Below are positions 1 to 19,201 of a DNA stretch of 51,554 bases, one piece after another. This DNA comes from a virus: positions 1-51,554 of IMG/VR virus record IMGVR_UViG_3300024348_000058. One strand, given 5' to 3'. Made by a program: the position numbers and the translations under genes. Numbering within the stretch: the first letter of the stretch is position 1; each line of letters opens with the position of its first letter. Under the pieces are notes generated by a model that saw only the letters and a program-made list of their open reading frames with translations, did no database searches and was not told the DNA's origin.

Positions 1-2436
1 AGTGTTACTGACAGCTTTAACTACATTATCTGAATTTTTTGCTACGTTATCTATTTTTCCAAAAACACTTGGTGCCCATTCTTTTGCTTTTTTTAATAAT
101 GCTGTTATTATACTTTTACCTTTTTGAGCAGTTGGTAATTCTTTTCCATATCTTGCATTTAATACATTAAAGCTTCTTTCTGGAGTTTTACTGTCTGATA
201 TAGTATTAAACATTTCTAGTATCTGATCATCCGTATAAATTTCTTGTAGTTGTTTATACTGTCCACTTTTTTTCATTATCTCAATCATCTCAGGAGTAAC
301 CTTTGAATCAAATATACTAGGTAAGTTTTTGTCTATGTTTCTTTCACTACTTCTACCAAAGTCTTCATCCTCTTCATAAAAATATCTTGTAGCATTTATT
401 CTTGATCTTGTTTCTGTATCTCTATTTAAGTATCTGGCACGGTCAATTCTTTCTTGAATAACTTCCTTATCATTAGGTGTTAATCCTTCAGACTTTAATA
501 ATTCATTAAGTTCTTTTTCATCTTCCTTTAAACGTTTTATTCCTTGTTTACCATATTTTTTAATTAGTCTACGGTCAGATAAAGGTATATTACTTGCATT
601 AAAATAACCCTTGTTATCAGGATTACCATCATCAGTAAAATGTGATAATTCATGAACAAGAACACTATCGTAACCATTACCTATTACATACTCTTCCATT
701 GCTGAAGGGTTCATTGTTACTTGTCCATTAATATACTGTCCAAGAAATCCATCAACTTCCTCATCAACTATATTTACATTATCAAAATTGCTTCTTGCAA
801 CCTTAACTTTATTTTTAAATTTCTCTGAACTAGAACTAGCATTTAACATTTGATTATGCATTGGTGAATTTGCCCAGTTAGTCATGAATTCAATTTGCTT
901 TGTTGGAGTAGAAGTGCTTCCAGCATCTTGAAATGTTGGGAGGTATTTTCCTAATTCCATTACATCTTGAGGTGTTGGTAAGTATTCTTTTAATTTTTTG
1001 TATAAATTTGAGGGAATATCAGTAACACTTTTAATATCACCATATTTAATGTTTAAGGCATCTATTGGGTTAAGAACATTTTCCATTACTTTTTTAGATA
1101 GACTAGTCTCATCTTTAGGATTAAATACTCCTACAACTCTTGATTTACCTTTTTCTCCATCACTCACTAATCCTCTAATTTTAGAGTAAACAGTATTTTT
1201 TTGTGGAGTAGAAGAAAAATCATAAGAGTCATATATAGTTATGTCTCCTGTATTAGGATCTTGCTCATAACTAACTCTACCAAACGTTGTAGCTGCTGCT
1301 AGCTCAGGTGATAGTAGACTGCCTGCAAGCATATCTATAGAAGACATATTAAGACCGTCAAGATCTTTTTCAATTTCAGGACCATAATCTATATATTGTG
1401 TACCTCCTTTTGTTTGCCCTGTTCTTTTAATTGCATTTAAAACACTTCTTTTAAGTTGCTCATTTGCATGATAAGTTGAATCTTCAAAACTATATTTATC
1501 ATAACCTGTTAATTTATTAAAAATAAGCTGACTTGCATTTTGTGGCAAAGGTGTCACTCCTCTTACAAGATTAGGTGGACTAACCAAACTTGCTAATGGC
1601 ATTAATGTTTGGGATGGAACACCACCAAGTTGATACTCTGGTGTTCTTCTTTTTCCTTCTGCATCTTTAAAATATACATCTTTAGACATACCCTCTTTTT
1701 TTCCTTCTTCAGTTGCTACATATCCGTCTGGTAAAAGATTATTATATGATAGATACCTTATTACTTCATCTTTTTTAGAATCATCAATATTTAATGATCC
1801 TACAATTGATCCAACATAATTGTTAAATGTGTCCTCTCCCATTTCTTGAAGCTTTGTCAAGAATGGTCTTTCATCCCCACCAAATATAGTTCTTAACTCA
1901 TGCCCCATACCCATTGCATTAGCACCAATAAAACCAGCTGCTTTGTCTACACCTACAAAATCTAATAGACCACCTACATAAGGCAGATCTCTAACCTTTT
2001 GTTGAATTGCTTCTGCAGCATATCTACCTCCTGAAGCATGCCTCATATTATCAATGTTTGCCATCTCATCTTCACTCTCAGAAAAATCTCTTGCCTTCTT
2101 ATCTATATTACCTAATGACTTATTAATTAATGTTTCAATATCATATAAAAAACTATTTTCAGGTACTGCAGCTTCATCTGGTATTTCTGTACCATCTTGA
2201 GCCATAGGAAACTCATCAACATAATCTGCATTTTTAAAATAGTGTTCACTACCAGGCATCATCATTGTTCCCGGACCAACATTAGGCTGAGCCCACACTG
2301 GATACTCTACATCTTGCATAGTAATGTGATTACCTTCAATGCGTGTATTTTTTCCTGGATGATTCCATTGTCCTTTTGGATCAACAATTATTTGATTTGG
2401 TCCACCTGGTAATCCTATGCTTTTATTTTTTCCCAT
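1..2436 (-). CDS. Virion-associated protein with zinc-metalloprotease motif (3' end outside window)
   Basis: The frame is open from an ATG at 2436 to the left edge, about 812 residues, with no stop, so the C-terminus is missing. The ATG overlaps the stop of the upstream muzzle gene by one base (TAATG), so the two are probably translationally coupled. Around residue 595 it reads VLVHELSHFTDDG; HELSH is the HExxH signature of zinc metalloproteases, with two His ligands and a catalytic Glu. The rest is hydrophilic and mostly unrecognised; the N-terminus is Gly/Pro-rich and there is no signal peptide. In crAss-like phages the gene after the muzzle encodes large proteins packed in or ejected from the virion, so an ejected protein with peptidase activity is a reasonable inference. 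The motif is seen; the role is not proven. Confidence 0.7.
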   Translation of the reverse strand, partial: MGKNKSIGLPGGPNQIIVDPKGQWNHPGKNTRIEGNHITMQDVEYPVWAQPNVGPGTMMMPGSEHYFKNADYVDEFPMAQDGTEIPDEAAVPENSFLYDIETLINKSLGNIDKKARDFSESEDEMANIDNMRHASGGRYAAEAIQQKVRDLPYVGGLLDFVGVDKAAGFIGANAMGMGHELRTIFGGDERPFLTKLQEMGEDTFNNYVGSIVGSLNIDDSKKDEVIRYLSYNNLLPDGYVATEEGKKEGMSKDVYFKDAEGKRRTPEYQLGGVPSQTLMPLASLVSPPNLVRGVTPLPQNASQLIFNKLTGYDKYSFEDSTYHANEQLKRSVLNAIKRTGQTKGGTQYIDYGPEIEKDLDGLNMSSIDMLAGSLLSPELAAATTFGRVSYEQDPNTGDITIYDSYDFSSTPQKNTVYSKIRGLVSDGEKGKSRVVGVFNPKDETSLSKKVMENVLNPIDALNIKYGDIKSVTDIPSNLYKKLKEYLPTPQDVMELGKYLPTFQDAGSTSTPTKQIEFMTNWANSPMHNQMLNASSSSEKFKNKVKVARSNFDNVNIVDEEVDGFLGQYINGQVTMNPSAMEEYVIGNGYDSVLVHELSHFTDDGNPDNKGYFNASNIPLSDRRLIKKYGKQGIKRLKEDEKELNELLKSEGLTPNDKEVIQERIDRARYLNRDTETRSRINATRYFYEEDEDFGRSSERNIDKNLPSIFDSKVTPEMIEIMKKSGQYKQLQEIYTDDQILEMFNTISDSKTPERSFNVLNARYGKELPTAQKGKSIITALLKKAKEWAPSVFGKIDNVAKNSDNVVKAVSNT

Positions 2437-5400
2437 TATCTTTTTGATAGTAATAATTTAGTATTGTCTAATCTCAATAGCATTTTTCTATTTCCTGATT
2501 CTTGTCTTCTTAATAAAACATGATTAGAATAATGTCTAAACTTTTTATGTTGAGTAGGACTCTTAAAGTAATTTAAATTAGTTTGATTTAAAGGTCTAAT
2601 ATATCCATTACATTGTGTATCAAATACAGATTGTTCTGAGTTAGTAAATTCACCTCTATCATTTGTAATATCATAAAACTGATTTATTCTAAACTTGTGT
2701 TCTACTTTACTAGAAAGAACAGTTATATCATTAGGACTAACTATTGGATATGCATTTTCTGCCCATGGATCATTAAAGGGTTGCATTTCTATATTCAATA
2801 ATCCTGATACCTGCTCTGTATTATAAATAATTGCTTTATCAAAATTAAATAAAAGATCTTCCCATTTGTCCCCTCCACACATATTGTATTCTGGTTCTCC
2901 TTTATAAACAAATGTTTCCAACTGATATTCTATACTTCTAATAGTATTTACTGACTGACCTGTATTTGATATCAACTCTATTTCCCACGGAAAACTTTCA
3001 CCATAGTAATTAGCAAATAAATCACACCTTACATTATGTCTCCAGAATGAACCAACTTGATAATTAGCTTGTACAAAGTCTGCATAATAATAATTACATA
3101 ATGGAGGTGTTGGGTCAACCCAAGTTGGATCACCTATTAAACCTAGTTCAGGAAAAGTATCAGGACAACTGCCTAGTGAAGTTGTTGTAGTACCTGTTGG
3201 CCCCGGAGGACAAGTAGGACATTCAACTTTTCTACATATAGGTGATTCCCCTGGAACATCAGAACATGTTCCTGTTTGCTCTGTAAAAATCCCACCATTT
3301 GCTGGGTCAGGATATATAAGTGTATAACCAGGAGGACAGTCACAACTATATGGTATAGAACAAATATCTGCTGCAACAGCTGCTGCAGTGGATTGTAATT
3401 CTATGGGGTTATTAGCTGCCATTGTAAATTGACCTGGACCCGGTGTGTTAGTCGTAGTATTATAATAAGCACTTGAAGGTCCAGCACCACTACCTACTGT
3501 AAACTGATCTAACACTGATTCATTGTCAGGAATATTACTTGTGTTACCTACATATACAGAATAAATTTCTTGATTTATAGGTCCACCAGCACCGGCTATA
3601 AGATTTTCACTTTGACAACAATTGTATGTTTGTGGCGTTAAAGGATCATTACCAGCAGAAATTCCGTCAGCATCTGTTGCAATTATGAGTATTTGTCTAT
3701 AATTAGGATCAGCACTTCTTGCTGGATAACTAGCTGCTAATGCTGAGCCAGCTTTATTATCCAATTGAGTTATACCGCTATCTCTTGCAACTTGTGCATT
3801 AGTTGAACTACCTATACCACCTTGGTTTGTCCAGTTATTTACATACCATATTGCTGCTTGAGCTCCTGTTACTGAAGCTAACATTGATTGTCCTGTGCCT
3901 GTTGGATTACCTTGTGCACTACCTGAAGCCCAAACTCTAAAACCTAATTGAATTGTACCATTAACCAATCCTGCCTGAATAGCAGGGTCATCTACAAAAA
4001 CAGCTAACCAATCTATCAATGCTTGTCCTCTTGTGTTTGCACCAACGGAAGGCCATGAAGGAAATACATTACCATTTTGTGAATTTCCACCAGGCCAAAG
4101 TGTACTACCAGAAGCATCTACTGTAACTACTATATCAATAAGACACTGTTGTGGTCCACCTGTTATATCAGCTGGGACATCGCTTTTAATAACTTGTCTT
4201 GGTTCAGTAATATTTATTATATCCTCACATAAACCAGTTGTTGAATTAAAAGTATATCCGGGAGGACATTGTGGTACATCAGTTGTTATAGTCTTTGTTG
4301 TAAAGAAATGATTTATGCTTGGCAATGCAAATTCAGGATGCCAATCATGAAATGAAATCCAAGCTTTTGCTTTTGGATCATAACTTATGGTCCAAGAACA
4401 ATCATCAAAATATATAGGATCTCCTATCTCAACAGCAACTACATTACCACCAAGAGTAATATCAATTGGTGCAGTCAATCTATCTGTAAGAGTTGCCCTT
4501 ATTGCATACTGAGATTTCATTGAATAGTCTTTTTTCATAAAGTAGACTATATCATCATTCGGATCATACATGACTTGACAACCAACTCCAACTACCGGAT
4601 TGTCTATCCATTTTGTTTCCTCTGCTTCTGGGAATTGTTTTAAAAATTTAGAAGGTAAATATTTATTAAACCACCATTTCATTCCCTGGTTTGATATAGC
4701 AATTAAGCCTTTACCTGGAGTATATTGGAATATTTTACCTTGAGCTTGTGATATAAAAAATAAACCTGCTGCTGTGTTTATAACACCACGTTGATTTTCT
4801 AGTGATCCATACTCATTTGATAAATCACTATTTACTATATTCTGTAAAGGCTGACTAAACAATCCACCATCACCTATTGTTATTTTAGTACCGGCATCTG
4901 TTTTCAAAGTATCAACACCCTGAAATAATTGTGGTGATTGATAAGGGAAAAACATTAATGCTCCCGTCTTACTAAAAGGTTTTATGACAGATACTTTATT
5001 TTTAAAGTCCTTATAATTAGCAAATAGATACTGTCTCCAGTAATCTCTTCTATCTTCTTCTTCAGCACGTAAGGAATATATTAATCTTTTAGGATAATTG
5101 ACATAACAATTTTCTGCAACGTATGGGTCATAGTCTTTTGTTTGTAGCTCTGCAAACGTACTGTTTTGGCTAACAAATTTAGACGGGCTTAAAGACTCAT
5201 CATACTTATAAAAGTTATCAAATTTTTCTATTTCAGCATGAAACAAATCATCTAAATCATTGTAATCATACTTGTCATAAAATCTTCTTTCTTTTGGTTC
5301 TTCCCAATCTCTATATGGTAAGTTAATTTCTGTTTCAACATAAAAGTCATTTACCCCATTTATGTGACTATACATATATGCACGGTTCATAGCAAATGCA

Positions 5401-8400
5401 CTATTTAAACCATCAGAAGTAAAAAGTGATAGTAAGTTCCATCCACAAGTATCACCTCTATCTAAGTAATATAATTCATTTGGTAAAGTCTCATCAATAT
5501 CATTACCACCAAACAATTCATTAAATCCAAAAGAACTTATTGTAGTGGCCATACCAGCCATATCAAACTTTCTACTGTTAAGCCAAAACCTTGGAAAGGG
5601 TACATTGTACCTTAAGTAATAATCATATGGGTATCCATCATACTGACCAATTAAAAAGTCAGTAAAGATTGGCATAATAGATTTTTCGGTGTAGTGAGAA
5701 ATAAATACATCACCACTGAATAAAGCTTTACTTGTATATTTAAAATTAGCTGGATCTGATTGATCTACTTTTTCTACACAACCTCTTTGCTGTATTTGTT
5801 TTACACCATCAAGCTGCCCATATTGATTATCCATATTAAACTTTAATGCACCATACAATGCAGATATAGGTTTTTTATACGGACCTTCTGGGTTCTTCAA
5901 ATTGCTCTTCCAATTTGGTGTTGATGCAGAACCATTACTATTAAAGAATCCACCTAAAGCAAATCTAGATTTATCTTCTACACCGTAGTTTGAAGATATA
6001 TTATCTTTAGTTGAAATTGCTACAGTAGTAGGTCTAAATAAATTATTTATTTTATATTTATTTTGATCAAATGTTTGGAATGAAGAGCCTATATAATTAG
6101 CTGCTTCATTTAATGTTCTAAATGTTATGTTTAAAGGATGGGCATTAAAATCATTATAGAAACCATATGAATTATATTTTAAAACATGTTCCTGAAAAGA
6201 ATTTAGGTTATATAATAAATCTATTATTTCTTGACCTCCAACTGCAATATTTTTTTGGAGTAATGCAAAACCAAAAGCTTTTTTAAATAAATTTCCCAGG
6301 TTTGATTCTGAAGTATCTAATGTTACTCCTTCTTGAGAACCACCACCCATAAGACCACCATTAGCAGTAGAACCAGTATCTGACATGTTATCTATAGCCA
6401 ACTGATTTAGTCTTTCTTTTGTACTGTCTCCAAACCCGGTTAAATCTGCTACATCTTGAATACCACCAGTAAACAAATCCATAAAACTACCTAACCAACC
6501 TCCAAGGCCACCACCACCTTGACTACTTACATAGTCATTAATAGCATCGTTTGCGTCAGTATGTGCACCACCACCTTTTTCATTATTATCACCATCACCA
6601 CCACCATGACTGCTAATATTACCTGTTGTGCTAGCAGTTGCAACACCTCCTGGAGATACAGACGTTGCAAAGTCATTCCAAGTTCCACCACCTCCACTTC
6701 TTTTATTAATCTTCCATTCAGGGTATGCAGTATTTATACCCTGAACTGGCAATGCTTTAGTATCTGGTGTACCATTAATATTTCTTAAAGCATAACCTAC
6801 ACCTATTAATGCACTAATTATAGCACTAATATTTCTTAGTAATTTAAACTGAGGATGCTTTTCTGATGGTTTAAAGTAACCTGATGATTCTCCGGTTATC
6901 TTACCATAGAATACTGTTTCATATGCATTTAAATATGGCTTAGTAAACATTAAGTCTGGAGAATGAAATGTAAAAACATCTTCTCTAAAACCTGATAGAG
7001 GTGGAAAATCACTAATTGCAGAACCAGAAAATGGACCACCATTATCACAACCTTTTGTTTTTCTAACTGTTGTATGAAACACATCAGGTCTTAAATCATT
7101 AAAAGGGTAATTAGGATATAAACCTTGAGCATCACCAATTAAATTTTCAGTATCTGGCAAATCATACTCACGCATGTTTTTGAACATTCCTTTAGCAAGT
7201 ATAGTTCTATTCCCTAATCTAGATCCTCTGAGTAATTCATAACCTACTATATTTGTAATAGGACTACCATCATTATATACAGGTCTTTTTATATTTGAAA
7301 ATTCTACACCTAATATGTATATACCTGTATCTGTACCATCTGTTAAACCTAGTACAGGGTTAATCATTTCATTAGGCATTTTATGGTGCCTAATAAATTC
7401 ACCGCATAAGTCTGCACCTGGATCAAATTCATTTGACCAAGTATGTGAGCTTGAATTCCATATTTCAGGTTGCTTATCAGGATACTTTTCTGTAGATTCC
7501 CAATAAGCCATTTCTCCTCTAGCTATTATTGTTGATCCATCTTCTTGTGGTTCACTAACTAAAGCACCTACGGTACTTGTGTTATAAACTTTGAAGACAG
7601 GATCTCCTGCAGGATCTAATGTATTAGGACCAAATATTATATCTCTTTCATTTTCAATAGTTCCATTTGGTAATGTATAATCTTTAGATGCTCTACCTGG
7701 TATATGATATGACGAAGATCTTTCACCTGTGTTATATATCCATCTAATAAAAAATGCATACTGCTCATCCCGCATGTATCCTAATTTATTACCTGAGTTT
7801 ATATAGTAATCATTAGTTACCTCGTTAATAACCCAATTGGTTTTTATATTATTTGCAATGGGTTGGTAATTAAAATCAAATTGTTCAGTTGGTCCTTGTC
7901 TTATAAGATAATCATTGACAACGTACATTGCCTCTGATTTTTCATATGCAGGTGACTGTCTGAATATTTCTTGTATTGGTATAGATATAAGTGAATCATC
8001 TATATAGTCTATATTTATATGTTTTGACTCAGTGCTATAGTTACCTATAAGTTTTGTAAATATTTGTCCTTGCTGTCTTATGAGCAATACTAAATCAAAA
8101 TAAAAGTAATCTTTATCTAAACCATCAATTTCTATATCAAGTGATCCATTACTACCTCTATGTGACCATATAGTCTGAATGTTTGATATTCCTATGTAGT
8201 CTGATATAACTTGATCATTCTCAGTATAAGCTATATAAGCTTGATAAGCTCCGTTTATAATAGTACCTCCATCAGTTGCTTTAGTAAGTTTAAGACAAGG
8301 TGTATCTACTAGAGGGTGTAATCTTATTTTTTCACAATCTAAAAAAGAAGTATCATCGTAAATAATACACGGATCACCAGGAGCTGATACTATATCTTGT

Positions 8401-8891
8401 ATGTAAGGAACATCATCTATATTCATTGAGCGTGATGGATTGTTACCATCATCCCAATACACTTGCCAAGAGCAGTCAAAATTTTCTTTTGCTGCACCGC
8501 TAACTAAAAACTTTTTATTAAAATTTAAACATGGATCATTAACTATTGTCTCATACTTACATTCACTATCATCAAATCTTCCTATTTCTGAACTAATATT
8601 ATCTGTAGAATATACAATCCACTCATCACCATATCTATGTATAGCACCTATAATAGTATAAGGTATAACACCACATTGTAAATTAGCTGGCTCATTACCA
8701 ATAATACCTAGATCACCATCTGAACTATTATTTGCTGCGTTAATAGCATGGTACCAAGTATCATTTTTTTCAAAAGATGGTGTTACATCTTTATTCATTC
8801 CTTTGGTAAACATATTAGTATTTACACTAGAACTACTTTTAGATGATGCTTGTGTTGCTTTAGCTTTTGATGTAGACTTCTTCTTTGCCAT
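2436..8891 (-). CDS. crAss-like stabilization/muzzle protein with internal vWA domain
   Basis: This 2151-residue protein opens with a Lys/Ser-rich tail and then NMFTKGMNKDVTPSFEKNDT, followed by a Gly-Asn-Glu-Pro segment. That start is characteristic of the crAss-like phage stabilization protein, the muzzle at the tail tip (recalled similarity). It lies directly downstream of two ring-type proteins, as in crAss genomes. Residues about 690-880 are Gly/Ser-rich low-complexity sequence. Residues about 1580-1845 look like a von Willebrand A domain: DASGS is a DxSxS MIDAS motif and IIATDADG follows later. Cys motifs flank it, CPPGYTFNSTTGLC before and CDCPPGYTL after. The C-terminus (about 1900-2151) returns to ordinary virion-like sequence. 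The protein is longer than I would expect for the family, which fits an inserted module. Confidence 0.8.
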   Translation of the reverse strand: MAKKKSTSKAKATQASSKSSSSVNTNMFTKGMNKDVTPSFEKNDTWYHAINAANNSSDGDLGIIGNEPANLQCGVIPYTIIGAIHRYGDEWIVYSTDNISSEIGRFDDSECKYETIVNDPCLNFNKKFLVSGAAKENFDCSWQVYWDDGNNPSRSMNIDDVPYIQDIVSAPGDPCIIYDDTSFLDCEKIRLHPLVDTPCLKLTKATDGGTIINGAYQAYIAYTENDQVISDYIGISNIQTIWSHRGSNGSLDIEIDGLDKDYFYFDLVLLIRQQGQIFTKLIGNYSTESKHINIDYIDDSLISIPIQEIFRQSPAYEKSEAMYVVNDYLIRQGPTEQFDFNYQPIANNIKTNWVINEVTNDYYINSGNKLGYMRDEQYAFFIRWIYNTGERSSSYHIPGRASKDYTLPNGTIENERDIIFGPNTLDPAGDPVFKVYNTSTVGALVSEPQEDGSTIIARGEMAYWESTEKYPDKQPEIWNSSSHTWSNEFDPGADLCGEFIRHHKMPNEMINPVLGLTDGTDTGIYILGVEFSNIKRPVYNDGSPITNIVGYELLRGSRLGNRTILAKGMFKNMREYDLPDTENLIGDAQGLYPNYPFNDLRPDVFHTTVRKTKGCDNGGPFSGSAISDFPPLSGFREDVFTFHSPDLMFTKPYLNAYETVFYGKITGESSGYFKPSEKHPQFKLLRNISAIISALIGVGYALRNINGTPDTKALPVQGINTAYPEWKINKRSGGGGTWNDFATSVSPGGVATASTTGNISSHGGGDGDNNEKGGGAHTDANDAINDYVSSQGGGGLGGWLGSFMDLFTGGIQDVADLTGFGDSTKERLNQLAIDNMSDTGSTANGGLMGGGSQEGVTLDTSESNLGNLFKKAFGFALLQKNIAVGGQEIIDLLYNLNSFQEHVLKYNSYGFYNDFNAHPLNITFRTLNEAANYIGSSFQTFDQNKYKINNLFRPTTVAISTKDNISSNYGVEDKSRFALGGFFNSNGSASTPNWKSNLKNPEGPYKKPISALYGALKFNMDNQYGQLDGVKQIQQRGCVEKVDQSDPANFKYTSKALFSGDVFISHYTEKSIMPIFTDFLIGQYDGYPYDYYLRYNVPFPRFWLNSRKFDMAGMATTISSFGFNELFGGNDIDETLPNELYYLDRGDTCGWNLLSLFTSDGLNSAFAMNRAYMYSHINGVNDFYVETEINLPYRDWEEPKERRFYDKYDYNDLDDLFHAEIEKFDNFYKYDESLSPSKFVSQNSTFAELQTKDYDPYVAENCYVNYPKRLIYSLRAEEEDRRDYWRQYLFANYKDFKNKVSVIKPFSKTGALMFFPYQSPQLFQGVDTLKTDAGTKITIGDGGLFSQPLQNIVNSDLSNEYGSLENQRGVINTAAGLFFISQAQGKIFQYTPGKGLIAISNQGMKWWFNKYLPSKFLKQFPEAEETKWIDNPVVGVGCQVMYDPNDDIVYFMKKDYSMKSQYAIRATLTDRLTAPIDITLGGNVVAVEIGDPIYFDDCSWTISYDPKAKAWISFHDWHPEFALPSINHFFTTKTITTDVPQCPPGYTFNSTTGLCEDIINITEPRQVIKSDVPADITGGPQQCLIDIVVTVDASGSTLWPGGNSQNGNVFPSWPSVGANTRGQALIDWLAVFVDDPAIQAGLVNGTIQLGFRVWASGSAQGNPTGTGQSMLASVTGAQAAIWYVNNWTNQGGIGSSTNAQVARDSGITQLDNKAGSALAASYPARSADPNYRQILIIATDADGISAGNDPLTPQTYNCCQSENLIAGAGGPINQEIYSVYVGNTSNIPDNESVLDQFTVGSGAGPSSAYYNTTTNTPGPGQFTMAANNPIELQSTAAAVAADICSIPYSCDCPPGYTLIYPDPANGGIFTEQTGTCSDVPGESPICRKVECPTCPPGPTGTTTTSLGSCPDTFPELGLIGDPTWVDPTPPLCNYYYADFVQANYQVGSFWRHNVRCDLFANYYGESFPWEIELISNTGQSVNTIRSIEYQLETFVYKGEPEYNMCGGDKWEDLLFNFDKAIIYNTEQVSGLLNIEMQPFNDPWAENAYPIVSPNDITVLSSKVEHKFRINQFYDITNDRGEFTNSEQSVFDTQCNGYIRPLNQTNLNYFKSPTQHKKFRHYSNHVLLRRQESGNRKMLLRLDNTKLLLSKR

Positions 8892-13083: not shown

Positions 13084-15309
13084 TTAGCAGCTTGCTATAA
13101 GCTGTGCGTTTATAGTTGAAGGATCTTCATTTTCATTCCAAGATCCACTAGTATTAACTGCTAACTCTCTCCATGGATAAACTATTGTTCCTCCATTATC
13201 ATATGTTGCATTTACACCAGCACCTAATACAATTATTTTAACACCTTGATTATTTGCCTGAGAGGTTAATTGACCTATATAAGCATAATCAGTTGGATCA
13301 AATGCATCATCATCACCGCTTGGTAATACATCAGTTATTACAACAATGTATTTAGCTACATTAGCTCTAAATGCATTTAAGAAGTTTCCAGTTAGTACTT
13401 GACCTATTGCCATATCTGTTGGTTCAGGACCATTAACTCCATCACCTATTTGTATACATGTACCATCTACACCACCATTAAGTTTTTGAACTTGAGTATT
13501 TGCTGATGTTCCATTATTGTCTTGGAACATTTCCCATGCTGTTACATATTGAGTTACTCCAATTCCTGTATTAGCAATTTTTTGTGAAGTAGGTAATGTT
13601 GTGTAATCTACACATGCTGCATATTTCGGTGGATTTGATGCTTCTTCTTCATCAACAGTTACTATACCTATTCTATAGTTATTAGATCCTGAAGAAGTAT
13701 CTATGGTATTAATTATACCAGCCATACCTGCTTTAATATCGTTTATTTCACTACCCATGCTTCCTGTGTAGTCAATAATAAATGCTACATCCATACCAGC
13801 ATCACACGGTGCACTTGCTGATGCAGTATTAAAATCTACTTTATCACATTCTTTTGTCTGACCATTTACTATGATTTGAAGCTCAGCAGTATAAGTTGTT
13901 GCTGCTGTTAATCCTCCTATTGGTTGTGTAACTTGTGGGCCAGGATTGTTAATAACATATGTAGCAACAACACTACTTGTTGAAGCTTCTTTAATTATTA
14001 AGGTATACTGTGCTGTTAAGCCTAGTAAATTTGTAAAGTTTGCATTACCGCCTGATACTGTCATATCTGTAAATACTATAGTTGGACAAGGGATTATACC
14101 ATCTATAACTGAAGATTCAACTGATTCACAAGATGATGTTCCGTCAGTAACTTTAAAGTCTACAGAGACACTTATATTTCCATACTGATTTAATGTTGGT
14201 ATTGGAAAGTTGTAACCTCCCCCATTAGATTGAAGCTGTGTTACATCTACTATTGCTGTTTCACTTGAACCAAGTGAATCTGTTAAAGTAATAACAGAAG
14301 ATCCAGCAGGTGTTGTAAATGAAGATGGTATAGATGATGATGTGAAATCAAAGTTTATAGCATCTATAGATCCTGCAGCATTTAAAATATTACTTGTTGT
14401 ATATCCAAAAACTACACTATCACAACCTGTTGGACAACAATTTGTTTGTATAGATGAAACTGCATTATATAGATCATCAATAACAATCCATGCATTCTGA
14501 ACACTTTGTGCAAGTGTACTAGGATTATTATTATATCCAGTTATAGAACCGTATGTTGCATCTGATGATAATGAGCTTGTAGACCCTATCAATGAAGTTT
14601 GACTTATTGCAGAGTTTATTTGTGTTGGTGTTCCAACAGCACTTTCTAAAGCACAAAATCTTTGTTCTAAAGCAAGAAGAAGTACTGATACATCTGTTAA
14701 ATTACCTACATTAATAATACAAGTTGGTATAACTTGCTTTTCAGCTACAACTCCAGAACATGGTAAAACACATGCTTCTAATGTATTTAATCTATCATTA
14801 TAACTTGAAAGAGTTGTATTTATGATTTGAATACTTTGTAAGTTAGTACATACCTGATTGGCAATTAAACTTGCAAATAAATCTAAACGTAATTCTGTTA
14901 CAGGATTTCCATTTTTATCATCATACTGCAGACATGCAGGTAATGTCATTATAGGTAAACTATCTGTTGTTTGTTTTGTTCTGGCTAAATTTGAGCTTGT
15001 TCCTACAGTTGTACCGGAACTATTAGCACAAATCTGATTAACCATTTCCTGTAGTACAGGTACCAAAGTTGTTGGTGTTTGACCTTGAATATTTAAACAA
15101 GTAAGGTCTAATCCACTAAGATTAGGATTAGCATCAACCCCGTTAGTAATTATATCACAAACTTTAGTTGCTAGTTTTGCTGTAACATCAGTTATTGTAT
15201 CACCTGTACATAAATCAATACATGCAATATCTGGACCTTGCCACACTACACAATTAGATGATATATTGTCACACCCGTTTGTTGAGGCACTTGAGCTTGT
15301 TGGGATCAT
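13084..15309 (-). CDS. Tail-fibre/adhesin-like protein with C-terminal vWA domain
   Basis: This 741-residue protein has an N-terminal half of Thr/Ser/Asn-rich beta sequence with scattered Cys, like phage fibres of Bacteroidota. Residues about 400-490 resemble a fibronectin-III-type segment. A von Willebrand A domain fills residues about 500-741. It starts CDAGMDVAFIIDYTGSMGSE, where DYTGSMGS is a MIDAS-like loop with Thr and Ser in the usual positions, and continues with YRIGIVTVDEE and KYIVVITDVLPSGDDD. Such domains usually bind protein or glycan ligands through a metal ion. The gene follows a terminator and a short gap, so its transcription is probably separate from 15439-15693. It is a candidate receptor-binding or virion-surface protein. 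Confidence 0.75.
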   Translation of the reverse strand: MIPTSSSASTNGCDNISSNCVVWQGPDIACIDLCTGDTITDVTAKLATKVCDIITNGVDANPNLSGLDLTCLNIQGQTPTTLVPVLQEMVNQICANSSGTTVGTSSNLARTKQTTDSLPIMTLPACLQYDDKNGNPVTELRLDLFASLIANQVCTNLQSIQIINTTLSSYNDRLNTLEACVLPCSGVVAEKQVIPTCIINVGNLTDVSVLLLALEQRFCALESAVGTPTQINSAISQTSLIGSTSSLSSDATYGSITGYNNNPSTLAQSVQNAWIVIDDLYNAVSSIQTNCCPTGCDSVVFGYTTSNILNAAGSIDAINFDFTSSSIPSSFTTPAGSSVITLTDSLGSSETAIVDVTQLQSNGGGYNFPIPTLNQYGNISVSVDFKVTDGTSSCESVESSVIDGIIPCPTIVFTDMTVSGGNANFTNLLGLTAQYTLIIKEASTSSVVATYVINNPGPQVTQPIGGLTAATTYTAELQIIVNGQTKECDKVDFNTASASAPCDAGMDVAFIIDYTGSMGSEINDIKAGMAGIINTIDTSSGSNNYRIGIVTVDEEEASNPPKYAACVDYTTLPTSQKIANTGIGVTQYVTAWEMFQDNNGTSANTQVQKLNGGVDGTCIQIGDGVNGPEPTDMAIGQVLTGNFLNAFRANVAKYIVVITDVLPSGDDDAFDPTDYAYIGQLTSQANNQGVKIIVLGAGVNATYDNGGTIVYPWRELAVNTSGSWNENEDPSTINAQLIASC

Positions 15310-16213: not shown

Positions 16214-19201
16214 TTACGGGCAAACACTTAATGTTATACAAGCTGTGCTTCCATCTTCAAAAGTAATTACTAAATATTTAAATTTACCTTCAGTAAAAAA
16301 CTCTTGAGATTTTATGCTTGTTGATTTTCCATTTACAAAAATACTTCCACCACCATCACTTCCCGCTGGTCCTTGTGGTCCTCGTGGACCCTGAGCACCA
16401 GTATTACCTGTGGTACCCTTTGATCCAGCAGGTCCTTGTATTCCTTGTGGTCCTTGACTTCCCGTTGCACCTGTATTACCAGTAGGTCCTCTAGAACCTG
16501 TTGGTCCTTGACTACCAGTTGGTCCTTTATCACCTTGTGGTCCTTGCGGTCCTTGACTACCTGTAGCCCCGGCTGATCCAGTTGCACCTCTAGGTCCAGT
16601 AGATCCAGTTGCACCTGGTGCTCCATCACTACCATCAGTTCCATTACTTCCTGCCGGTCCTTGTGAACCTGTATTTCCTTTAGCTCCAGCTGGTCCCTGA
16701 GCACCGGTAGTACCTGTAGCTCCTCTTGCTCCCGCATCTCCTGTATCACCTTTAGGTCCTGTCAAACCTGTTGGATTACCTACCCAGTCTCCTTTAGCAT
16801 TAATTACATCTGCACCATCAATTCTAACATACCCTACATCAGCAACACCTTTAAGTCTTAAATTACCTGAAGTAGTTAATGACATTGCACCGTCACTATT
16901 TGACTGACCTTCATACTTCCAAACCCATCCACGGTCTGAGTCATTATTCATTTGGAATACTGTAGCATAGTCATTTAAATAACCATAGCTCTGACCAGAT
17001 TGCATTCCTATACCATAAGTAGATGAGGTACCCCAGAATCTATATTTACTTGCATTATCACCTGAATTAGTATAGTGATATGTTCCACCATTAGGTCCGG
17101 CTGGACCTTGGGAACCAGTATTACCCTTTGGACCTTGAGATCCCGTGTCTCCTTTTGCTCCTGCTGCACCAGCAGATCCAGTAGCACCACGTGCACCCGT
17201 ATCTCCCTTAGCTCCGGCTGTACCCGGATTACCTTGAATACCCTGTGATCCAGTAGCACCTTTATCTCCAGTGTCACCCTTGGCACCTGCAGCTCCAGCG
17301 GCTCCTGCAGGTCCTCTTGATCCTGTAGCTCCTGCATCACCTGTATCACCTTTTGCACCAGCTGATCCAGTTAATCCACGTATACCTTGTATACCTTGTG
17401 ATCCTGTATCTCCCTTAACACCTTGAATACCTTGAATACCTTGATCACCTTTAGGGCCTTGTGGTCCCGTATTAGTTGGCATTGTTACAGAGTTACCATC
17501 ACTAATTGTAAGTGTTTGACCTGATACAGAAAGGGTTTGTTGATCTGCACAAATAGTAACAGTTCTTGATTCTTCATCAACTTGTACATTTGTTCCTTTA
17601 CAACCTACTAAAGTTAAAGTATCATTATTGCTACCCGCTTTAATAATACCTTTACCATCAGTTACGTTTTTAAATATAGATTGAGAAGAACCTCTATCTG
17701 TATTTGTAATAGTTATAGTACCTCCACTAGATGTAGAAGTCATTTCTGATTGTATACCACTACCTTGTGCTATTGTTACTGTTTCACCATTTGTAACAGT
17801 TGTACTTTCTGTTCCGTTTCCTTCTTTAATAGTCCAAGAAGACATATTCCCAACTTGTGAGTTATCTACTTTTGTCCATGTTGTATTAGCAAATACAGCC
17901 CAATCACCTATTTGCCAATCTGTAATACCATTTAAATTTGTACTACCTGCAACAGACACTATATAATAATCTCCTGATGTACCTACATTACTTGCAAGAC
18001 TTGGTGAATTTGTACTAGCGTTCCATGTACCTTCAAATTGTAATACTCCAGTTAAAGCATCATTAATAGCTTTTTGTATTTGAGCACCTGTTGCAAGGTT
18101 AGAAGACGAAGAAGTTACAGCAGCAGTTTTTGGTGTTAGTGTTACTGATGTTGTACCAGTCTTAGTTAATGTATTTGTATTTCCAGATGCAACACTTGTT
18201 ACACCTGAGCTTGAACTAGTACCTGCACCAATTAATGTTCTAACTTCTGCAGCACTAATTCCTGAATTAAGTGTAGGTGTAGTTCCATTTGAAAGTATTG
18301 CTGGTACACCACTATCTGTTACTTTTTTAGTGTTATTTACAATAGCAGTTGCTTGTGTAGAAGTAATAGTTGTTGTATTACCTGCCATTGCAGTTGTTGC
18401 TGTTGTACCAATAACTAAGTTGGAAGAACCAGTTCCTGCTCCTATAAGAGATCTTACCTCTGCTGCACTTATCCCTGTATTTAGAGTTGGACTTGTACCA
18501 TCAGATAATATTGCAGGTCTACCAGTATCTGGTAATGTGTTAGTAATAGTTATGGTTCCACCACTACTTGTTGATGTCATCTCAGATGTAATACCTGTAC
18601 CCTGAGCAATAGTAAATGTTTCTCCATTAGTAACAGCAGTTGATTCAGTACCATTACCTTCTTTTATTGTCCAAGAACTCATAGATCCTGAACCTGTCCC
18701 AGCTCCAATTAATGACCTTACTTCTGCTCCAGTTACACCGGAAGCTAAAGTTGGTGTACCACCACCACTAAATATACCCGGCTCAGCATAAATAGTAGAA
18801 CTATTAAATGCATTACTTCCATATGTATATGTTTGATTTGTAGTACCACTAACGCTAAACGTAAGTGTGTTACCTGATTTAGTTATACCATCAAGATAAA
18901 AGTTTGAAGCAGATGTTAAATATCTACCATCTAAATCTACTGTAAGGTCTGCTAGACCTGAACGTGTTAATGTTAAAACTCCATTAGTAGTATTAAAGCT
19001 TATACCTGATACATAGTTATTTGTACCTGTCTGATCATCAATCCATTTTACAGCTGTACCTGTAGTACTAAGAACTTGACCATTAGTACCAGCAGATCCA
19101 CTACTATCTAATATTCTACCACCTGCCCCTAAAGAAACAGTAGTATCTACAGTGTTACCTTCTAAAGATAATAATCTTTGTGAGCCAGTTATTGTTGCCA
19201 T
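16214..19201 (-). CDS. Collagen-like tail/head fibre protein
   Basis: This 995-residue protein has three parts. Residues 1-575 are fibre-type beta repeats in which a block starting [15 protein letters not shown] occurs twice and a block of the form [16 protein letters not shown] occurs four times. Residues about 577-703 are collagen Gly-X-Y repeats ([16 protein letters not shown]). Residues about 704-811 are a non-collagen insert with a Tyr/Trp-rich fold ([14 protein letters not shown]). A second collagen block spans about 812-947, then a 45-residue C-terminal cap ends in ACITLSVCP. Such fibres trimerise and display receptor-binding tips. It starts one base after the stop of the next upstream gene. 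Expect length variation of the repeats between relatives. Confidence 0.85.

Follow-up and report, generated by a model that had tools for sequence, protein, structure and literature searches.

By cryo-EM, the muzzle of phage crAss001 was found to be hexameric, with blade 4 of the propeller forming a gate, and the same paper proposed cell contact by the tail-tip part of the muzzle (PMC10172136). Its muzzle passages describe length variation in the crass and IG2 regions and not in the propeller loop considered here. The crAss sections of the review PMC10136315 describe fast change in tail and host-recognition genes. Inserts of the von Willebrand A (vWA) kind are not mentioned in the muzzle passages of either source, and no report linking vWA with Crassvirales or crAss-like phages was found in the open-access literature, with prior description elsewhere being possible. 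So far, the muzzle has had a gate role and a conjectured role in cell contact.

The window analysed here is the whole 51,554-base IMG/VR record IMGVR_UViG_3300024348_000058, which is probably a fragment since several relatives are 107–119 kb long. The open reading frame at 2436–8891 pointed out in the earlier note is real and encodes a protein of 2151 aa (P0001), but it is read from the minus strand (window 8891–2436). Its product matched PHROG 37948 (1.2e-44) and PHROG 15100 (2.2e-26), and its homologues include a csAssE-Sib protein annotated as ‘Muzzle protein’ and, in Cellulophaga phage phi4:1, a structural protein. Four HMM blocks of the family (N, mid, up and dn) recognized the csAssE ‘Muzzle protein’ and the phi4:1 and Lbo-JY46 proteins with E values of 1e-10 to 1e-38, and crAss001 gp44 weakly (4e-5 to 0.06). 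The hhalign comparison of the family profile with gp44 was also weak (1.2e-4) and colinear, residues 1–163 being aligned with 1–153 and residues 1364–1455 with 1122–1199. The structure model of the window muzzle was matched by crAss stabilization proteins from BFVD. Two crAss ring genes adjoin the gene, the CrAss_Ring_1, CrAss_Ring_2 and Crass_capsid Pfam families are present in the record, and so are portal and terminase PHROGs of the crAss type. On the grounds of the PHROG, csAssE-Sib and phi4:1 matches and the colinear alignment with gp44, P0001 was assigned as the muzzle (tail-tip nozzle or ‘stabilization’) protein, in agreement with the identity first suggested for it and with its crAss neighbours.

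Several other features of these muzzles were recorded. Residues 701–850 (6342–6791, minus strand) are Gly-rich, poorly conserved and of variable length, with 23–35% identity to relatives, and form a second variable region of the muzzle within the crass-domain part. The L075, L076 and L078 muzzles carry insertions of ~200–400 residues near window residue 1146. The muzzle homologue of Lbo-JY46 (PP438436.1), listed alongside L081, is 27% identical and lacks the cassette described below; this phage was recorded from a cyanobacterium (Leptolyngbya phage), which is unexpected if crAss-like phages infect only Bacteroidota.

A vWA domain had been claimed at residues of about 1580–1845, and the HMM placed it at about 1582–1845; it is given here as residues 1583–1845 (3357–4145, minus strand). 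The sequence of P0001 alone gave no vWA match at E ≤ 1 in a single-sequence Pfam scan, though PF00092 (VWA) was matched by 17 of the 39 aligned relatives (best 5.8e-08) and the family profile searched against PDB sequences detected the integrin alpha-1 I domain and PTMP1 (E 0.0004–0.02). The assignment was therefore made from the Pfam matches of the relatives, the PDB profile search and the structure. The AlphaFold (AF2) model, built for residues 1456–2151 from the 39-sequence alignment, showed a pLDDT of about 90 over the domain and the order of secondary-structure elements characteristic of vWA. Foldseek matches in the PDB were mostly vWA proteins, namely C2a/factor B, integrin alpha2 I (TM 0.62 by target), collagen VI, TRAP and CMG2, and also included the pilus adhesins SpaC, PitA and PilB. 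The fold is thus a Rossmann-type alpha/beta vWA fold by AF2 and Foldseek, and the refutation by a different fold foreseen in the earlier note failed.

The DASGS loop noticed earlier proved to be the first MIDAS loop (D1592-A-S1594-G-S1596; 4104–4118), in which the aspartate and S1594 were present in 39/39 and S1596 in 38/39 relatives. The second loop provides T1697 (3801–3803, kept in 34/39) and the third D1740 (3672–3674, kept in 37/39), all encoded on the minus strand. These residues are kept in 34–39 of 39 divergent relatives despite a mean column identity of about 32%, and all five rank among the 20 most conserved of the 262 vWA positions (hypergeometric p 1.6e-6). Parts of the MIDAS were lost in relative L036. 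The domain is far beyond chance, as tens of relatives have it in this very position and its MIDAS residues are among the most conserved. Judging from these residues, an intact MIDAS should coordinate a divalent cation. The idea that length variation is limited to the MIDAS face was not supported, since the bottom loops vary as well, and variation alone does not single out the MIDAS as the binding surface.

The vWA domain is framed by short Cys motifs. The CPPGYT motifs reported on both sides were confirmed, one at residue 1542 and the other at 1852; the related CPPGPTG follows at residue 1894 as a third motif. The first motif, CPPGYTFNSTTGLC, covers residues 1542–1555 (4227–4268, minus strand) and the second, CDCPPGYT...GTC, residues 1850–1876 (3264–3344, minus strand), while CPPGPTG occupies residues 1894–1900 (3192–3212, minus strand). 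The motifs of the window are cEGF-like and scored 16–17.5 bits, below the cut-off of 26.6 for cEGF (PF12662), with L070 being the one relative above it (29.3 bits). C1844, C1850, C1852 and C1876 are conserved in 36–39 of the 39 relatives, and the cysteines of these motifs probably form disulphides.

The distribution of the domain was followed by scanning IMG/VR with six peptide patterns, all located outside the insert and hence blind to the cassette, which yielded 79 loci. The site is spanned by 64 distinct relatives, and the counts of its contents depend on which relatives the scan reached. A vWA domain was found in 55 of them (51 single, three carrying another copy in the next loop upstream and one tandem), a PA14/CBM-like beta-sandwich in three, a PA14-like domain together with vWA in one and another domain of about 400–480 residues in two (L043 and L060), whereas the site was empty in three. 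In crAss001 gp44 (near residue 1218–1235), phi4:1, csAssE-Sib and Lbo-JY46, the site is a short loop. The segment is missing from gp44, phi4:1, csAssE, Lbo-JY46, L031, L066 and L073; its absence from several crAss-like muzzles bears out the suggestion that it is an inserted cassette. L031 lacks exactly the vWA domain and retains both Cys motifs, and the remainder has 90% identity to L074, which bears the vWA. The same empty state was seen in another contig, L113. The empty muzzles (L031, L113, L066 and L073) indicate that the domain is dispensable in some phages. At least eight changes are needed to account for what the main site holds across the 91-sequence core tree.

Such precise losses (L031/L113) and the high sequence divergence of the cassette could also be expected of a neutral or selfish passenger, i.e., an insertion that a surface loop tolerates, that recombination maintains and that evolves rapidly because it is weakly constrained. 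We regard this as very improbable. All five MIDAS residues are conserved, with purifying selection on the MIDAS present in the sample, the reading frame is kept across the insertion site in the relatives examined, and no associated retroelement was detected, a reverse transcriptase (RVT_1) being found in 0 of 12 related records. The same result led to the rejection of the muzzle as a DGR target protein.

In the more distant muzzles L097, L109 and L190, the main site is empty and a PA14-like or vWA domain is found in another loop, some 85 residues upstream (window numbering). This second insertion loop (window residue about 1465) accepts vWA or PA14-like domains in L048, L055, L080, L097, L109 and L190, and phi4:1 has about 300 extra residues there.

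A scan of IMG/VR with the vWA profile gave 80 loci, all of which were muzzle ORFs (78 with both flanking blocks and two truncated). All vWA-bearing relatives were metagenomic, and searches of named phages revealed no vWA-bearing muzzle. The corresponding scan with the PA14-like domain also gave matches in many other large phage proteins. Outside muzzles, this domain was seen in L091–L096, L098–L108 and L110, in proteins of 328–1444 aa, some with weak tail PHROG matches. The alternative cassettes scored 17.4 and 13.8 bits against PF07691 (PA14), below its curated cut-off of 24. The AF2 model of the PA14-like domain (pLDDT 84) had the fungal lectin POL, CBM35 and CBM6 as its best matches, with PA14 (6x7z) weaker (E 0.003). 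As the lectin and CBM matches outrank that of PA14, the alternative cassette was named only PA14/CBM-like, and membership of PA14 is not claimed. The 480-aa insert of L043 (14690–16129) and L060 (14675–16114) had no convincing match in Pfam or among PDB sequences and is possibly lectin-like. A donor search among genome contigs with the single L057 cassette sequence, a method detecting close relatives only, returned no relative.

Not only the kind of domain but also its alleles differ between close relatives. The exchanged cassette comprises residues of about 1554–1893 (3213–4232, minus strand). The muzzle cores of the window phage (Q) and L004 are 98% identical and their cassettes 63%, whereas Q and L003 share 85% of the core and 88% of the cassette. 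Similarly, the L004 and L025 cassettes are 89% identical with cores only 75% identical, and L005 and L025 have 96% identity in the core and 72% in the cassette. The cassette tree rejected the core clades {Q, L004, L002} (AU 3e-49) and {L005, L025} (AU 0.002), and the core tree rejected {Q, L003} (AU 1e-7) and {L004, L002, L025} (AU 4e-65); as the identities were already known when clades and cassette boundaries were picked, these AU p-values are not strictly those for groups named in advance. In the codon-aligned comparison with L004, nucleotide identity dropped abruptly from 93% to 70% right after CPPGYTFNSTTG (residue 1554) and rose from 70% to 98% at CPPGPTG (residue 1894). These steps make the Cys-motif coding blocks the edges of exchange, with the first motif as the upstream and CPPGPTG as the downstream recombination edge, and the blocks may serve as homology anchors. 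The earlier note had recognized the cassette; it had missed both this allele recombination and the nature of the site as a hotspot holding vWA, a PA14/CBM-like domain, another domain or nothing.

To see which genes vary together with the cassette, the window was compared with the near-identical L002 genome. Head, portal, terminase and ring proteins were about 96–100% identical. Strong divergence was confined to the muzzle cassette and a collagen-like tail fibre (16214–19201, minus strand; Pfam Collagen 5.3e-39; 60–84% identity); two further fibre-like genes (86–87%) and the C-terminal part of a 741-aa protein diverged more mildly. Phage genes that vary while the rest of the genome is near-identical are typically host-recognition genes.

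This pattern also bears on the possibility that the cassette binds environmental or host-associated matter in general, such as extracellular polysaccharide, particles or biofilm, rather than an infection receptor, its exchange then tracking habitat. Binding of this kind has been proposed for the Ig-like and BACON domains of other phages, and bacterial matrix adhesins commonly contain vWA, PA14 and CBM-like domains. The PDB matches, with a PA14 sugar-binding domain and pilus adhesins among them, and the existence of empty muzzles fit it as well. However, the cassette is carried by the nozzle, which must contact the cell, and it diverges together with the tail fibre while the head and ring genes stay about 96–100% identical. 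General adhesion is accordingly considered unlikely, though it is the strongest of the competing explanations.

The 741-aa protein mentioned above is a neighbouring fibre-like protein (13084–15309, minus strand) with a C-terminal vWA from residue about 507, including a DYTGS MIDAS (Pfam VWA 5.3e-4). Five relatives match it only from residue 1 to about 493–499, their C-termini being replaced by other modules in ORFs of 807–1217 aa. This vWA is a second one, different from that of the muzzle, and judged by these alignments, the C-terminus looks like a second exchange site for adhesion domains.

The presence of another vWA in a neighbouring protein could suggest that the muzzle vWA is an interaction module internal to the virion, engaged in assembly or in docking of fibres or cargo, with its MIDAS binding an acidic residue of a phage protein. 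Most of the described phage and archaeal-virus vWA proteins found indeed act inside the cell as assembly partners of AAA+ ATPases (PMC7824862, PMC7911831). Against this, a MoxR-type AAA_3 gene was found in 0 of 12 related records, most of them over 105 kb, with control genomes positive, and a MoxR-vWA cochaperone system was rejected on this basis. Swaps of the cassette are, moreover, not accompanied by matching ones in ring or neighbouring structural proteins, and for an assembly part, deletion or replacement by a sugar-binding fold would hardly be expected. Such an internal role therefore appears improbable.

The best reading, to which we assign a probability of about 0.68, is that the cassette serves on the tail nozzle as an exchangeable domain for surface binding, which probably depends on cations. 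Exchange, replacement or loss of the vWA is what would be expected of a swappable part gripping the host surface, and both the swapping pattern and the conservation of the MIDAS support metal-dependent receptor binding, which we infer. In the muzzle hexamer at the tail tip, a loop of the C-terminal beta-propeller region would bear a stalk stiffened by disulphides of the CPPGY motifs, with an exchangeable binding domain on it, which in the window phage is the integrin I-like vWA. Through its MIDAS cation, this vWA may bind an acidic group of a protein or polymer on the host surface, and up to six copies could provide multivalent secondary attachment once the tail fibres have engaged, i.e., a two-step attachment, with the attachment domain next to the gate retaining DNA and cargo. 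The domain would be replaced because the ligand changes between hosts: alleles would pass between phages by recombination with edges at the conserved Cys-motif coding blocks, and in the longer term vWA would give way to a PA14/CBM-like or other domain or be lost. A point against this proposal is that the insertion lies in the propeller and not in the distal crass domain, which the muzzle passages of PMC10172136 favour for cell contact. How the vWA is placed with respect to the propeller is uncertain in the model (pTM 0.46), so outward display is not proven.

A further, rather doubtful possibility is that the muzzle vWA works as an integrin-like switch, in which binding of ligand and cation at the MIDAS shifts the C-terminal helix, which runs directly into the Cys stalk and the propeller, and so helps to open the gate. 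If true, the cassette would both anchor the phage and trigger the release of its genome.

As an exchangeable surface-binding domain, the muzzle cassette is a candidate for the contact of crAss-like phages with the outer membrane after passage through the capsule, in a phage group which, as far as bearers of the vWA cassette are concerned, is known only from metagenomes. The recombination pattern amounts to a natural swap series for linking the cassette to the host.

Among known systems, crAss001 gp44 is alike in its N-terminal, crass-domain and propeller parts, which are weakly colinear with the window muzzle, and in the adjoining ring proteins, and it is the published hexameric tail-tip gate (muzzle passages of PMC10172136); it differs in its length of 1371 aa and in having a short loop near 1218–1235 where the window muzzle bears the cassette. 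The vWA/integrin I superfamily (integrin alpha1/alpha2 I, CMG2, TRAP, collagen VI and PTMP1) shares the fold, the order of elements and the DxSxS...T...D MIDAS, whereas the PDB matches are only about 10–15% identical and the cassette sits within a phage nozzle between Cys motifs. The MIDAS pilus adhesins SpaC, PitA and PilB, which are among the top fold matches, are likewise extracellular bacterial adhesins with vWA heads, but they belong to cellular pili of Gram-positive bacteria and the likeness is one of fold alone. With the cassette, a phage tail tip would carry a MIDAS adhesion domain of the sort known from integrins and bacterial adhesins. The described phage vWA proteins (MoxR-vWA cochaperones, CobT-like proteins and crAss001 Gp52) have the domain in common with the window muzzle; they are stand-alone, AAA+-linked or serve other roles (PMC7824862, PMC7911831, PMC8651126), in contrast to the cassette, which is part of the muzzle. 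Modular receptor-binding tips of phages, with fibre domain exchange, crAss BACON repeats and DGR targets (the sections of PMC10136315 on them), also exchange a binding module on a conserved platform; here, no retroelement was found in the 12 related records, the platform is the nozzle protein and complete vWA or PA14-like domains are exchanged, which would extend the modular exchange of receptor-binding parts beyond fibres to the nozzle. Exchangeable receptor-binding modules are thus of a kind already known in phages, whereas the muzzle as its platform, a vWA with a MIDAS as the module and domain-for-domain replacement at one loop are, to our knowledge, new.
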